From assembly GCA_902544065.1 (NCBI GenBank), contig CACCAS010000002.1:189517-253516 (forward strand): a DNA stretch of 64,000 bases. Reading direction: 5' to 3'. Shown here in pieces: positions 47,570 through 51,382 of the stretch. A program made the translations under genes and the position numbers. How positions within the stretch are numbered: the first letter of the stretch is position 1; the number at the start of each line of letters is the position of its first letter. The notes under the pieces were generated by a model. The model was given only the letters and a program-made list of their open reading frames with translations, was not told where the DNA came from and made no database searches. The stretch comes from an uncultured Pelagibacteraceae bacterium. GTDB lineage: Bacteria > Pseudomonadota > Alphaproteobacteria > Pelagibacterales > AG-422-B15.

Positions 47570-49369
47570 ATGACTGGAACCAAAAATATCAGAAACTTTT
47601 CAATTATTGCGCACATTGATCATGGTAAATCTACACTTGCAGATAGATTAATACAATTTTGTGGCGGTCTGACAGAACGAGAGATGAAGTCGCAAGTACT
47701 TGACTCAATGGATATTGAACGAGAAAGAGGGATTACTATTAAAGCACAGACAGTTCAATTAAAGTATAAGGCTAAAGATGGTGAAATCTATACATTAAAT
47801 ATCATAGACACTCCGGGGCATGTTGATTTCAGCTATGAAGTTAACCGCTCACTCTCAGCTTGTGAAGGCTCACTTCTTGTTGTTGACGCGAGTCAAGGCG
47901 TGGAAGCTCAAACGCTAGCAAATTTATACCAAGCCGTTGAGAATGATCATGTTATTATTCCTGTCTTAAATAAGATTGATTTACCTGCAGCAGATCCTGA
48001 GAGAGTAAAAGGACAAATTGATGATATTCTTGGAATCGATACAAGTAATGTTTTAGAAATTTCGGCAAAATCTGGAATAGGCATAGAAGATGTTCTCGAA
48101 ACTATTGTAAATGATCTCCCAGCTCCTGTTGGGAGTACAACGGAACCTTTAAAAGCATTACTCGTTGATAGTTGGTACGACGCTTACTTAGGTGTTGTAG
48201 TTTTGGTAAGAGTTATTAATGGCATATTGAAAAAAGGCATGGAAGTAAGATTTCATCAAACTGACACTAAGCATTTAATTGAAAGAATTGGATGCTTTAC
48301 TCCAAAAATGATTGTCAATGAAGAGATCAAGACAGGTGAACTCGGATTTATTACTGCTGCAATTAAAGAGGTTTCTCAAACCAAAGTCGGAGATACTATT
48401 ATTTTATCAAATGATAAGAAAACTCAGCCATTGCCTGGCTTCAAACCCAGTCAACCAGTAGTATTTTGTGGTCTTTTTCCAACCAATGCAGCAGACTTTA
48501 AATTCCTAAAAGATGCTCTTGCAAAATTAAAGCTTAATGATTCAAGTTTTCATTATGAGCAAGAAACCTCAGCTGCATTAGGCATGGGCTTTAGGTGTGG
48601 TTTCTTAGGATTACTTCACCTTGAAATTATTGTTGAAAGATTGGACAGAGAATTTGATTTAGATTTGATCACAACAGCTCCGAGTGTAATTTATGACATC
48701 TTACTTACTGATGAGAGTAAGATAGAGCTTCATAATCCAGCAGACATGCCTGAGATAATGAAAATCAAAACAATTTCTGAGCCTTGGATCAAAGCAACTA
48801 TAATATGTCCAGATGAGTATTTAGGCAGTATCATTTCACTTTGTGAGGACAAAAGAGGTATTCAAAACGAACTGACGTATTCAGGATCAAGAGTAATACT
48901 TACTTATAAGCTACCACTTAATGAAATTGTTTTTGATTTTTATGACAAACTAAAATCAATATCAAGTGGATATGCAAGTTTCGATTATGAAATTGACCAG
49001 TATATGGAAAGTGATCTTGTTCGTTTAAGCATTCTAGTTAATGATGAGCCTGTTGACGCTTTATCAATAATTGTTCACCGAAACTTTTCTGAAAAGAAAG
49101 GTAGAGCCGTATGTGAAAAACTCAAGGAATTAATTCCAAGACATCAGTTTCATATACCCATTCAAGCAGCTATAGGTGGTAAAATAATTGCTCGAGAAAC
49201 AGTGCGTGGGTATAGAAAAAATGTTATTGATCGGATTCATGGTGGCGGAGCTACAGATAGAAAAAGAAAGTTGCTTGATAAGCAAAAGAAGGGCAAGCAA
49301 AGACTTAGAACTTACGGAAAAGTTGATATTCCTCAAGAGGCATTTATTGCTGCTTTGAAGGTTGAATAA
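47570..49369 (+). CDS. lepA: Elongation factor 4 (LepA)
   Basis: 599 aa translational GTPase that back-translocates or rescues stalled ribosomes and affects initiation. GTPase motifs: G1 [15 protein letters not shown]2 [16 protein letters not shown]3 DTPGHVDF, G4 NKIDLP. The LepA-specific C-terminal domain contains the basic tail ([20 protein letters not shown]). The stop codon is followed with no gap by tRNA-Ser. Confidence 0.97.
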
Positions 49370-49459
49370 GGAAAGGTGGCCGAGTGGTTGAAGGCGCACG
49401 CTTGGAAAGCGTGTATGCGGGTGACCGTATCGTGGGTTCGAATCCCATCCTTTCCGCCA
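49370..49459 (+). tRNA. tRNA-Ser(GGA), integration site of the pilin element
   Basis: A 90-base class II tRNA with encoded CCA. Acceptor arms GGAAAGG/CCTTTCC, anticodon arm CACGC/GCGTG with loop TTGGAAA (anticodon GGA), long variable arm TATGCGGGTGACCGTATC, T loop TTCGAAT. It starts the base after the lepA stop. The 58 bases from 49402 to the end plus the next base are repeated exactly at 51324-51382. Confidence 0.97.
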
Positions 49460-49460
49460 T
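49402..49460 (+). repeat. attL: 59-bp direct repeat, copy 1 (in tRNA-Ser)
   Basis: From the anticodon loop to one base past CCA. Identical over 59 bp to 51324-51382. This is the form expected when an element integrates by site-specific recombination into a tRNA 3' end and restores the gene. Confidence 0.9.
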
Positions 49461-49503
49461 TTTCTTGAATCTTAAAGGTTAAAATTTCAAAGCTTTGATA
49501 TTT

Positions 49504-49525
49504 TGATCACAATCTGATCACACTC
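49504..49525 (+). repeat. Left pair of 11-bp tandem repeats
   Basis: TGATCACAATC followed directly by TGATCACACTC, 10 of 11 bases identical, 44 bp inside the left edge of the element. They may be recombinase arm sites or an operator for the first pilin gene, whose start is 46 bp downstream. Confidence 0.55.
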
Positions 49526-49571
49526 AATATTTAAAATTTTAAATGGCCTCGATCTAGTTTAAGCTTCTTCC

Positions 49572-50126
49572 ATGACTCAAAAAGGCTTCACCCTCATTGA
49601 ACTTCTCGTCGTGGTTGCAATCATTGGAGTATTGGCGGCGGTTGGGGTGGTAGCATTTAATGGATTTATTAATAATGCAAAGATTAATACTGTTAAAGCA
49701 AATCATAAATCAGTCGTCAAATATATACAAACTGAGTTTATGAAATGTGATTACGGTGGCGAGATTGATTTTCATGAAAGATGGAAAAGGGGAGAAATTG
49801 AAGGACATTCCTATCTCGAAGATGTGAACTGTCAAAGAATTAATACTACAATTAATCAGTCTAGTAAGATGACATTCATGATTGATTACATAATGGGTTT
49901 CTTGTCACATTATGATGTAATGGGCTTTACCAATCCCTTCAATCCCAATTGGGATAATGGCACAGGAGTTCAAGGAAATCATGATTGTGCAGAACCTAAC
50001 TCTGAGACCGTTGGTGAAGTAAATTGTGGATGGGAACCAGGCACTACGACAATTCACTGTTGTACAAGATTTGGCAATGATCCTGATGATATACTTCAAA
50101 CATATATTCAAGATCCTTTTATATAA
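49572..50126 (+). CDS. Type IV prepilin-like protein 1
   Basis: 184 aa. Prepilin leader MTQKG is cut before Phe6; the mature N-terminus FTLIELLVVVAIIGVLAAVG has Glu5 and the hydrophobic alpha1 helix used for pilus assembly. The globular head (KSVVKYIQTEFMKCDYGG onward) contains several cysteines, including a Cys-Cys near the C-terminus, so disulfide loops are likely. Exported to the membrane and processed by a PilD-type peptidase not encoded here. First of three tandem pilins; it is unclear whether it is a major pilin, minor pilin or pseudopilin. Confidence 0.85.
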   Translation: MTQKGFTLIELLVVVAIIGVLAAVGVVAFNGFINNAKINTVKANHKSVVKYIQTEFMKCDYGGEIDFHERWKRGEIEGHSYLEDVNCQRINTTINQSSKMTFMIDYIMGFLSHYDVMGFTNPFNPNWDNGTGVQGNHDCAEPNSETVGEVNCGWEPGTTTIHCCTRFGNDPDDILQTYIQDPFI

Positions 50127-50130
50127 ATAT

Positions 50131-50661
50131 ATGCAGAAACAAAAAGGCTTCACCCTCATTGAACTCCTCGTTGTTGTTGCAATTATTGGAGTTCTGGCTG
50201 CTGTTGGGGTAGTAGCGTTTAATGGATTTATAAAAAGTGCACGTATCTCAGTTATAAAATCTAACCATGAAATAGTTGAAAAAAAAATACATCTTCTAGT
50301 TCAAGAGTGTAACGTAAATTCATCAGCGAAGATGATGAATATAAGAAATGATACTCAATTGAATGAAGTTGACTGTTATGGAAATCCAGTCTGGTTTTTT
50401 GGTGAGTATTTAAAAAATCACTTTAATAATGAAATAGGTTGGACGAACCCACTTAATTTAACTTCCATGGGTGTGTCAAATATGGGAACGATGCAAGAAG
50501 GCTCTTGTTATGGCGCCACTCAAGATCAATACCAAGGATTTGTATGGGTGAGGTCCCTGACAGCTTCAACACCAGGTGACAAAAGAGTAAGTGTTTGCAC
50601 TTGCTTTGAAAAACCTTGCTCTTCAATAAATAATAGACTTGAAAACTATATTAGATTTTAA
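50131..50661 (+). CDS. Type IV prepilin-like protein 2
   Basis: 176 aa starting at ATG 50131, 4 bp after the previous stop. An in-frame ATG at 50026 lies inside the first pilin and would destroy the leader, so it is rejected. The leader MQKQKG precedes FTLIELLVVVAIIGVLAAVG. The first ~30 residues are nearly identical to pilin 1, also at DNA level, but the head is unrelated in detail (VEKKIHLLVQECNVNSS onward; Cys-rich end VSVCTCFEKPCSS). Same assembly route as pilin 1. Confidence 0.85.
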   Translation: MQKQKGFTLIELLVVVAIIGVLAAVGVVAFNGFIKSARISVIKSNHEIVEKKIHLLVQECNVNSSAKMMNIRNDTQLNEVDCYGNPVWFFGEYLKNHFNNEIGWTNPLNLTSMGVSNMGTMQEGSCYGATQDQYQGFVWVRSLTASTPGDKRVSVCTCFEKPCSSINNRLENYIRF

Positions 50662-50671
50662 TACCTAATCT

Positions 50672-51205
50672 ATGGATCAAAAAGGCTTCACGCTCATTGA
50701 ACTTCTCGTCGTGGTTGCGATCATTGGAGTTCTGGCCGCTGTGGGTGCAGTAGCTTTTTCTGGTTTTATGAAAAATTCTAAAAAAACTGTTGCTGATAGA
50801 CAATGCCATCAAGTTATTAAGGAAATAAGAACTTTGTGGCAAGGTTGTGATGCAGGTATTCCTCTATACTTAAGAAATGATTGGGGTGATTTAGACACAA
50901 ATTCTGATTGGTGTACACATACTCAAAATAACTTTACAATGGTTCAGGAATGGGAGTCTCACTTTAGAGATGTCTATCTAAATCCTTATTTTGCCAATGA
51001 AACAGGAGATGTAAGACAAGCTCTTAGAGAATCTTGTTCACGTCCTGACGATATGAAGCCTGGGTGTATTCAAATTCAAGTCTCAAATTCCTACCAATCT
51101 GCAGTTCAGGGATCAGATCCTTACTGGTATTTTACATGCTATAATTTAGATCAGAATGACAACTTAACTACTTATGAAGATAAAATATTAGGCATAGTGC
51201 ATTAA
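50672..51205 (+). CDS. Type IV prepilin-like protein 3
   Basis: 177 aa, 10 bp after pilin 2. Leader MDQKG, then FTLIELLVVVAIIGVLAAVG with a slightly different helix end (AVAFSGFMKNSKK). The head again differs from both others (HQVIKEIRTLWQGCDAGIPL onward) and has six or more cysteines. Three pilins with one shared anchor and three distinct heads suggest a set of surface variants or a multi-pilin fibre tip. Confidence 0.85.
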   Translation: MDQKGFTLIELLVVVAIIGVLAAVGAVAFSGFMKNSKKTVADRQCHQVIKEIRTLWQGCDAGIPLYLRNDWGDLDTNSDWCTHTQNNFTMVQEWESHFRDVYLNPYFANETGDVRQALRESCSRPDDMKPGCIQIQVSNSYQSAVQGSDPYWYFTCYNLDQNDNLTTYEDKILGIVH

Positions 51206-51221
51206 AAATATGAAACAATTG

Positions 51222-51243
51222 CTGACACACTCTTGTCACACTC
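51222..51243 (+). repeat. Right pair of 11-bp tandem repeats
   Basis: CTGACACACTC followed directly by TTGTCACACTC, 9 of 11 identical. The second copy shares 9 of 11 bases with the left-end unit TGATCACACTC. A further TGACACA is at 51313-51319, next to attR. Confidence 0.5.
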
Positions 51244-51323
51244 ACTCAAAATAATTCACTCCTTCCCTAAAAAGAATTCCCAGTTTACTTAGAAATATTA
51301 TCCTCTAATTTGTGACACATAGA

Positions 51324-51382
51324 TTGGAAAGCGTGTATGCGGGTGACCGTATCGTGGGTTCGAATCCCATCCTTTCCGCCAT
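51324..51382 (+). repeat. attR: 59-bp direct repeat, copy 2 (tRNA-Ser 3' fragment)
   Basis: Exact copy of 49402-49460. The sequence upstream of it does not complete an acceptor, D or 5' anticodon stem, so it is a tRNA remnant, not a gene. Confidence 0.9.

Follow-up and report, generated by a model that had tools for sequence, protein, structure and literature searches.

Gene cassettes bounded by repeats of a tRNA end, as well as integrase-less islands that keep their attachment sites (CIMEs), are already in print. In the available sections of the respective reports, tRNA-targeted gene cassettes are described for flexible genomic island 1 of 'Ca. Actinomarinales' (PMC7771536), and 15 ssrA islands without an integration module for Dehalococcoides (PMC3146451). 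For the hypervariable regions of SAR11, the accessible part of the text reports no attC sites; tRNA genes flank HVR4, and the gene table includes pilins (PMC2217521). The anticodon loop is one known crossover place in tRNA genes (Islander, available text of PMC4383910).

Here we describe a segment of this general kind in a 64,000-nucleotide stretch of Pelagibacteraceae DNA (the window), which belongs to a genome of 1.26 Mb on 18 contigs (93.8% complete); the lepA relatives of the window are Pelagibacteraceae or Pelagibacterales, mostly single-cell genomes. The lepA gene ends at 49369 and is followed directly by an intact tRNA-Ser(GGA) gene. The 3' part of this gene, from the first base of the anticodon loop (TTGGAAA) to the CCA and one further base, is repeated perfectly over 59 bp at a start-to-start distance of 1922 bp (Table 1). 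The origin of such a repeat by chance is far beyond expectation. Elsewhere in the genome there are two weaker, partial matches, which are other tRNA-Ser genes, and the full fragment is found only at the two sites in the window. The locus has the arrangement of an occupied attachment site, with a core inside the tRNA, the tRNA restored and its old 3' part displaced. A preliminary description of this DNA had reported that a perfect repeat encloses 1.92 kb in which three prepilin genes, but no recombinase, are encoded. The repeat coordinates confirm this, as do the searches of the cargo, which consists of three pilin genes only: all three proteins exceed the Pfam N_methyl cut-off, and their PHROGs families are pilin or unknown.

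Table 1. Features of the tRNA-Ser(GGA) segment (positions in the window)
Feature	Position	Strand	Basis
tRNA-Ser(GGA), target gene, intact	49370..49459	+	ARAGORN
Repeat copy 1, attL core, within tRNA-Ser	49402..49460	+	59-bp repeat
Left arm pair TTTGATCACA / TCTGATCACA, 11-bp spacing	49502..49523	+	9/10 matches, p=0.027
Prepilin-like gene 1, 184 aa	49572..50126	+	N_methyl; 77% identity to G012 pilin
Prepilin-like gene 2, 175 aa from the start used	50134..50661	+	N_methyl
Prepilin-like gene 3, 177 aa	50672..51205	+	N_methyl
Right arm pair TGACACACTC / TGTCACACTC, 11-bp spacing	51223..51243	+	9/10 matches, p=0.007
Conserved right end, common to nine cassettes (27-base search piece, 51284-51310)	51274..51323	+	
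Repeat copy 2, displaced, attR core	51324..51382	+	59-bp repeat

The locus was then compared with that of related genomes (designated by G numbers; L numbers designate sequence stretches and phage records). The eight relatives with the highest lepA identity to the window (92.8-94.7%) have a single core copy, that is, empty sites, and other cassettes are present in G039 (92.7%, over 674 bases) and G003 (91.4%). Past its second repeat copy the window carries genes for an FkbM methyltransferase, a small ORF and an MFS transporter. In G038 the same block begins about 47 bp past a single tRNA-Ser gene and is 82% identical to the window over 2.2 kb; by this sequence comparison, the G038 locus is the unoccupied form of the window site. 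In G036 (L130 1900-2900) there is one copy, a 793-bp insert with a methyltransferase-like gene (recognised by eye) lies between lepA and tRNA-Ser, and the 5' end of the tRNA differs by one base. The first genes past tRNA-Ser (L035-L061) vary widely even at single-copy sites, so the tRNA-Ser locus is a wider hotspot of gene turnover.

A 58-base tRNA-Ser core was searched with up to 3 mismatches in 53 genomes of the family and 44 of the neighbouring family; it was matched in 43 of the former and in none of the latter. We inspected the locus in the window, in 39 relatives and in three more genomes with a core match (G043, G051 and G052), the ten genomes without a match being set aside. Each of these three has one core copy in the stretch inspected, the contig of G043 ending 68 bp after the tRNA. 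Altogether 11 of the 43 genomes contain at least two core copies (10 at ≤3 mismatches; G040 was added at 5 mismatches). Fourteen segments close at a displaced core copy, with core-to-core lengths of 214-3152 bp; the first segment of G030 is truncated by the contig end. Segments stand in tandem in G003, G030 and G046. Their cargo varies and is mostly not pilins: in G030 four pilins are followed by a GIY-YIG protein and then by the left end of another four-pilin set, and other cassettes encode mostly short, membrane- or secreted-looking proteins without a Pfam family. The GIY-YIG protein matches the PADLOC candidate PDC-S57 (E 4e-71); in total, PADLOC returned one defence candidate and one weak match among ten proteins taken from the cargo and the window. 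In G039 (L118 1544-1617), 16 extra bases of the tRNA 5' part precede the displaced copy and replace the usual right end. Empty sites and other cargo between the same repeats, which the preliminary description had suggested looking for, thus do occur in relatives, G030 with its two different four-pilin sets being one case. It had also named a pattern under which its reading would fall, with all relatives carrying the same three genes and both repeats; the family does not follow this pattern, as sites without a cassette and sites with different cargo are both found at these repeats.

Among nine cassettes chosen for likeness (leaving aside G039 and G047, whose ends are altered, G049 and G050, which have another end type, and G046_c1, which has a third), the last 50 bp have a mean pairwise identity of 0.79 (minimum 0.62), and in the same nine the identity is 0.33 for the first 50 bp and 0.28 for an interior stretch. 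A 27-base piece of the right end, searched with ≤3 mismatches, has seven occurrences in 6 of the 53 genomes, all of them with their start 40 bp ahead of a displaced copy, and the reversed control pattern has no match in the 53 genomes. The conserved right end may be a promoter or a site for an accessory protein; the standard promoter scan gave no site in it, and weak HMM matches elsewhere are at chance level.

Both ends of the cassettes contain direct repeats spaced by 11 bp. In left ends they usually lie 43-58 bp after the tRNA (at 73 in G020), in right ends 94-111 bp before the displaced copy. For each end, flank and single-copy site, those of G043, G051 and G052 apart, we compared the best 10-mer match at +11 with 300 first-order Markov resamples. 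A P-value ≤0.05 was obtained for 8 of 13 left ends and 9 of 14 right ends, for 0 of 11 flanks past the last copy (two of which, in G030 and G047, themselves resemble left ends of further cassettes) and for 0 of 29 single-copy sites. Over spacings of 7-16, 11 alone stands out, and it does so in cassette ends only. The arms are also more alike within than between cassettes: with G046_c2, whose ends overlap, left out, the summed left-right score is 135 vs a permuted mean of 121.5 (sd 3.0), a value that none of 20,000 permutations reached. The corresponding match in inverted orientation has p=0.15. The own partner ranks first in 8 of 13 cassettes. Lower ranks, which speak against this reading, are those of the window (5th of 13), G030_c2 (6th), and G003_c2 and G040 (10th). 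We explain the rank of the window by a mosaic origin: its left end is that of the first pilin cassette of G030 and its right end is that of the second cassette of G030, so that, from the sequences, the window cassette is likely a mosaic.

The attP of a lambda-type integrase has this layout, with pairs of direct repeats on either side of a core. The paired repeats on both sides of the tRNA core would fit arm-type sites of this kind, and five of the 13 left ends and five of the 14 right ends, which miss p≤0.05, count against such an assignment. The preliminary description had proposed a non-autonomous cassette moved in trans. Site-specific integration without a recombinase of its own stands and is strengthened by the arm repeats at the ends; movement in trans would be the inference from it. 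We consider it probable that the segment is a non-autonomous integrative cassette, an attP-type element plus cargo, which is served in trans by a tyrosine integrase. Its attachment site would be the 58-bp tRNA core between two pairs of 11-bp-spaced arm repeats, joined to cargo without any enzyme. A lambda-type integrase supplied in trans, whether from a temperate phage or from a small autonomous element like the one at tRNA-Met (see below), would recognise the arms and carry out recombination between the core and the tRNA-Ser(GGA) anticodon loop. Such recombination would restore the tRNA and displace its old 3' end, and repeated insertion at the restored tRNA would build up arrays; the cassettes may still be mobile today. 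An improbable alternative is that ordinary homologous recombination between tRNA copies and conserved right ends exchanges the segments, with no integrase acting today. The identical ends would supply the substrate, and the mosaic look of the window cassette would be its product, but such exchange leaves unexplained both the origin in the anticodon loop and the presence, at both ends, of arm pairs which match within cassettes and differ between them.

We next looked for the enzyme. No PHROGs integrase family was matched by the three pilins of the window or by ten further cargo proteins; the Pfam and PHROGs scans covered cargo other than the two ORFs of G003_c2, those of G049 and G050, and the G030 pilins. 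A custom integrase HMM, which also misses the divergent tRNA-Met integrase described below, found none in the window or in the stretches of 39 relatives, and tblastn with the tRNA-Met and tRNA-Gly integrases found no relative in these tRNA-Ser stretches. By this HMM and by tblastn with these two divergent integrases, no adjacent autonomous element is recognised at tRNA-Ser in the window or the 39 relatives.

The own genome was searched for tyrosine recombinases, the class of enzyme to which the preliminary description had pointed. PF00589 matched two Xer-type recombinases, neither of which reaches its XerC or XerD equivalog cut-off. Two phage-type integrases, of 459 and 401 aa, were found in elements at tRNA-Met and tRNA-Leu. 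The 5.6-kb element at tRNA-Met (contig 3, L278 5985-11692) is closed by a perfect 45-nt displaced 3' part. Its 459-aa integrase matches phrog_1 (E 4.6e-25) and exceeds the cut-off of Arm-DNA-bind_3, and TTGGTACA pairs with 11-bp spacing are present at both ends. Four neighbouring short ORFs of this element encode proteins with like starts (MKHLLSI). Of all the sites compared, this element comes closest to the cassettes. It is like them in that the tRNA 3' part is displaced from the anticodon loop, 11-bp-spaced pairs stand at both ends and the cargo resembles small secreted proteins; it differs in that it encodes an integrase, uses another tRNA core and has its right arms about 160 bp from the core vs about 100. 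The 6.8-kb element at tRNA-Leu(CAA) (contig 5, L328 4553-11419) belongs to the 5' type: a 40-nt 5' part of the tRNA is displaced without mismatch. Its genes include one for a 401-aa integrase, which matches phrog_1 (E 4.2e-19), and one for a resolvase-type protein; no arm pair was detected in the 300 bp before this tRNA-Leu. Displaced tRNA parts are therefore not unique to the tRNA-Ser locus of this genome, in contrast to the first reading. The 45-nt tRNA-Met and 40-nt tRNA-Leu parts rule out that no other tRNA is affected, and the integrases of these two elements rule out that the genome holds Xer recombinases only. That the host XerC/XerD move the cassette is very improbable: two recombinases of this type are indeed encoded, but the cassette targets the anticodon loop of a tRNA and has arm pairs, unlike the dif-like site that would be expected for Xer, and the genome has other integrases, of phage type.

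The elements at tRNA-Met and tRNA-Leu also bear on the possibility that the cassettes are decayed, CIME-like remnants, that is, formerly autonomous islands or prophages which lost their integrase, kept attL, attR and some genes, and move, if at all, with a neighbouring element. Autonomous 5.6- and 6.8-kb elements at other tRNAs of the same genome could represent the starting point of such decay, the term CIME already covers islands that have att sites but no integrase (available sections of PMC5704250), and eroded displaced copies or ends are seen in G040, in the third copy of G046 and at the G039 boundary. Yet many other displaced copies have remained perfect, many cassettes are compact and retain intact cargo, arms and ends, and no integrase remnant was recognised in the scanned cargo. 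Several independent decays, each leaving one to four genes between intact arms, would be a less simple history, and we regard this origin as unlikely, though deserving serious attention.

In the relatives, PF00589 has two matches in each of G020 and G040, the most complete cassette-bearing ones (99 and 100%). Across the 53 family genomes, clear extra matches are present in G007, G032, G049 and G050, with a further fragment at a contig end in G032, and the stretches around these matches contain no tRNA-Ser fragment. Two of these genomes have elements at other tRNAs. G007 (L184 3195-9230) carries a 5.9-kb element of the 5' type at tRNA-Gly(GCC), which holds two genes resembling those of tyrosine recombinases and weakly matches, below cut-off, a replication protein of the filamentous-phage type; G049 (L191 1134-7826) carries a 6.6-kb segment with an integrase between tRNA-Lys and a displaced tRNA-Lys part. 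Since the tRNA-Met, tRNA-Leu and tRNA-Gly integrases are all missed by PF00589, a search with this model cannot establish the absence of a tRNA-Ser-specific integrase in the family.

Phages were examined as the other candidate source. IMG/VR contains no exact match to the tRNA core or the right end of the window. A pattern search gave 50 tRNA-Ser stretches, and ten records were checked: seven in which, by eye, a core follows non-tRNA sequence (L219, L221, L239, L243, L251, L258 and L267), and L252, L222 and L242. PF00589 was matched in 6 of the ten, namely in each of the core-bearing phage records L219, L221, L239, L243, L251 and L267; L258 has none and was not counted. In L243 and L251 the core starts at the same tRNA-Ser base after non-tRNA sequence, with pairs on both sides matching at 9-10 of 10 positions; L267 scores 7 and 8, L219 has an upstream pair only, nearer the core, L221 a downstream pair only, and L239 none. 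By these raw match counts, clear pairs flank the core on both sides in 2 of the 6 core-bearing phage contigs. L243 and L251 are thus like the cassettes in having an attP in tRNA-Ser(GGA), a core beginning at the anticodon loop and flanked on either side by 11-bp-spaced pairs, and unlike them in carrying phage genes with an integrase, other arm letters and a diverged tRNA sequence. Among the matches listed by blastn of tRNA-Ser against phage records, most are ordinary phage tRNA genes. The integrase of L267 has no relative in the phage records and matches only itself in IMG/VR. The arm motif occurs in 15 IMG/VR stretches, 5 of them with T-loop-like sequence within 260 bp. An integrase-like ORF lies ≤42 bp from the motif in 3 of the 15 (L323, and L320 and L325, which are the same sequence) and 6.7 kb away in L267; the other 11 have none. 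No integrase specific for the tRNA-Ser core was found, nor any circle or excision read, and this counts against the attP reading. Our conclusion is limited to two points: the cassette does not bring its own enzyme, and enzymes of a suitable type occur both in its own genome and in phages. The own-genome elements with integrases at tRNA-Met and tRNA-Leu lower the odds that a phage is the specific source.

The cargo of the window cassette raises a question of its own. Pilin 1 is related to one of six pilins of G012, which adjoin genes for T2SSF, T2SSE and secretin; within the sets compared, pilins 2 and 3 reach 35-36% at best. The starts of the three genes have about 113 bp in common at 81% identity (49569-50781), the remainder being different, and look as if homogenised. 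Pilin 1 has no relative in phage records or in IMG/VR. N_methyl was matched in 6 of 45 family genomes searched; in the neighbouring family, G070 (L302) has 17 matches in one genome, many of them as a tandem row on contig 3. T2SSF and the prepilin peptidase (Peptidase_A24) had no match in any of six genomes searched, which included the own genome (G000) and G030 (54% complete); the T2SSE model found nothing in G030 and, in the own genome, no more than a match below threshold (21.9 bits). The same models do score the pilus genes of relatives G012 and G050. At 93.8% completeness, the own genome does not show the T2SSF, T2SSE and prepilin peptidase set of a Type IV pilus, although such a locus may lie in an unassembled part. 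The suggestion that a mobile pilin cassette serves to swap surface identity is weak, because the only N_methyl matches of the genome are the three prepilins of the window and none of the three pilus-machine markers was found above threshold; most cassette cargo, moreover, is not pilins. The presence of pilin genes in a genome where no pilus machine was found is a testable question.

SAR11-type bacteria are among the most abundant cells of the sea, and gene gain in their streamlined genomes is poorly understood. An element made of an attachment site plus cargo makes one route of gene gain testable, as the arm letters would point to the integrases able to act on a given cassette, and in any genome of the family one would search at the tRNA-Ser locus. 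As a tentative extension, the cassettes might form a population-wide SAR11-type system, in which enzyme-less elements of one to four genes plus an attP share the tRNA-Ser landing site, are collected, stacked and reshuffled like integron cassettes, and depend on borrowed integrases, with several arm specificities, that temperate phages or small autonomous elements encode. If so, a helper would spread genes relevant to the contest with phages, the pool including pilins and a phage-defence candidate.

In the titles and abstract openings of the open-licence literature that were listed, neither arm repeats on cassettes of this kind nor the present tRNA-Ser system were reported. The 'Ca. Actinomarinales' cassettes belong to another phylum and use other tRNAs, and the available sections describe neither arm repeats nor a conserved end (PMC7771536). 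The tRNA-Ser locus has variable cassettes at one tRNA, each closed by a partial tRNA repeat, as does the additive island fGI-2 of 'Ca. Methylopumilus', with recurring repeats of the tRNA-Lys end (last 20 nt) and variable content of 330 bp to 42 kb; the repeat of fGI-2 is shorter, the tRNA is another one, and arm repeats are not described in the sections available (PMC10872708). Tycheposons, according to the same sections, are 4-200 kb long and have a tyrosine recombinase, whereas the window cassette measures 1.9 kb and has none (PMC10872708). An integron would have attC sites and an integron integrase; the ends of the cassettes here consist of tRNA cores with arm pairs. CIMEs (PMC5704250) and the Dehalococcoides ssrA islands (PMC3146451), in the accessible texts, keep attL and attR, lack integration genes and have tandem neighbours; the window cassette likewise keeps attL and attR and has no integration or transfer genes. 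These islands, however, share their arrays with autonomous islands that have the same target, and no autonomous island was found at tRNA-Ser here. The Dehalococcoides integrase is a serine recombinase. What is new at the tRNA-Ser locus is the paired 11-bp-spaced direct repeats, which are present at cassette ends and absent from empty sites.
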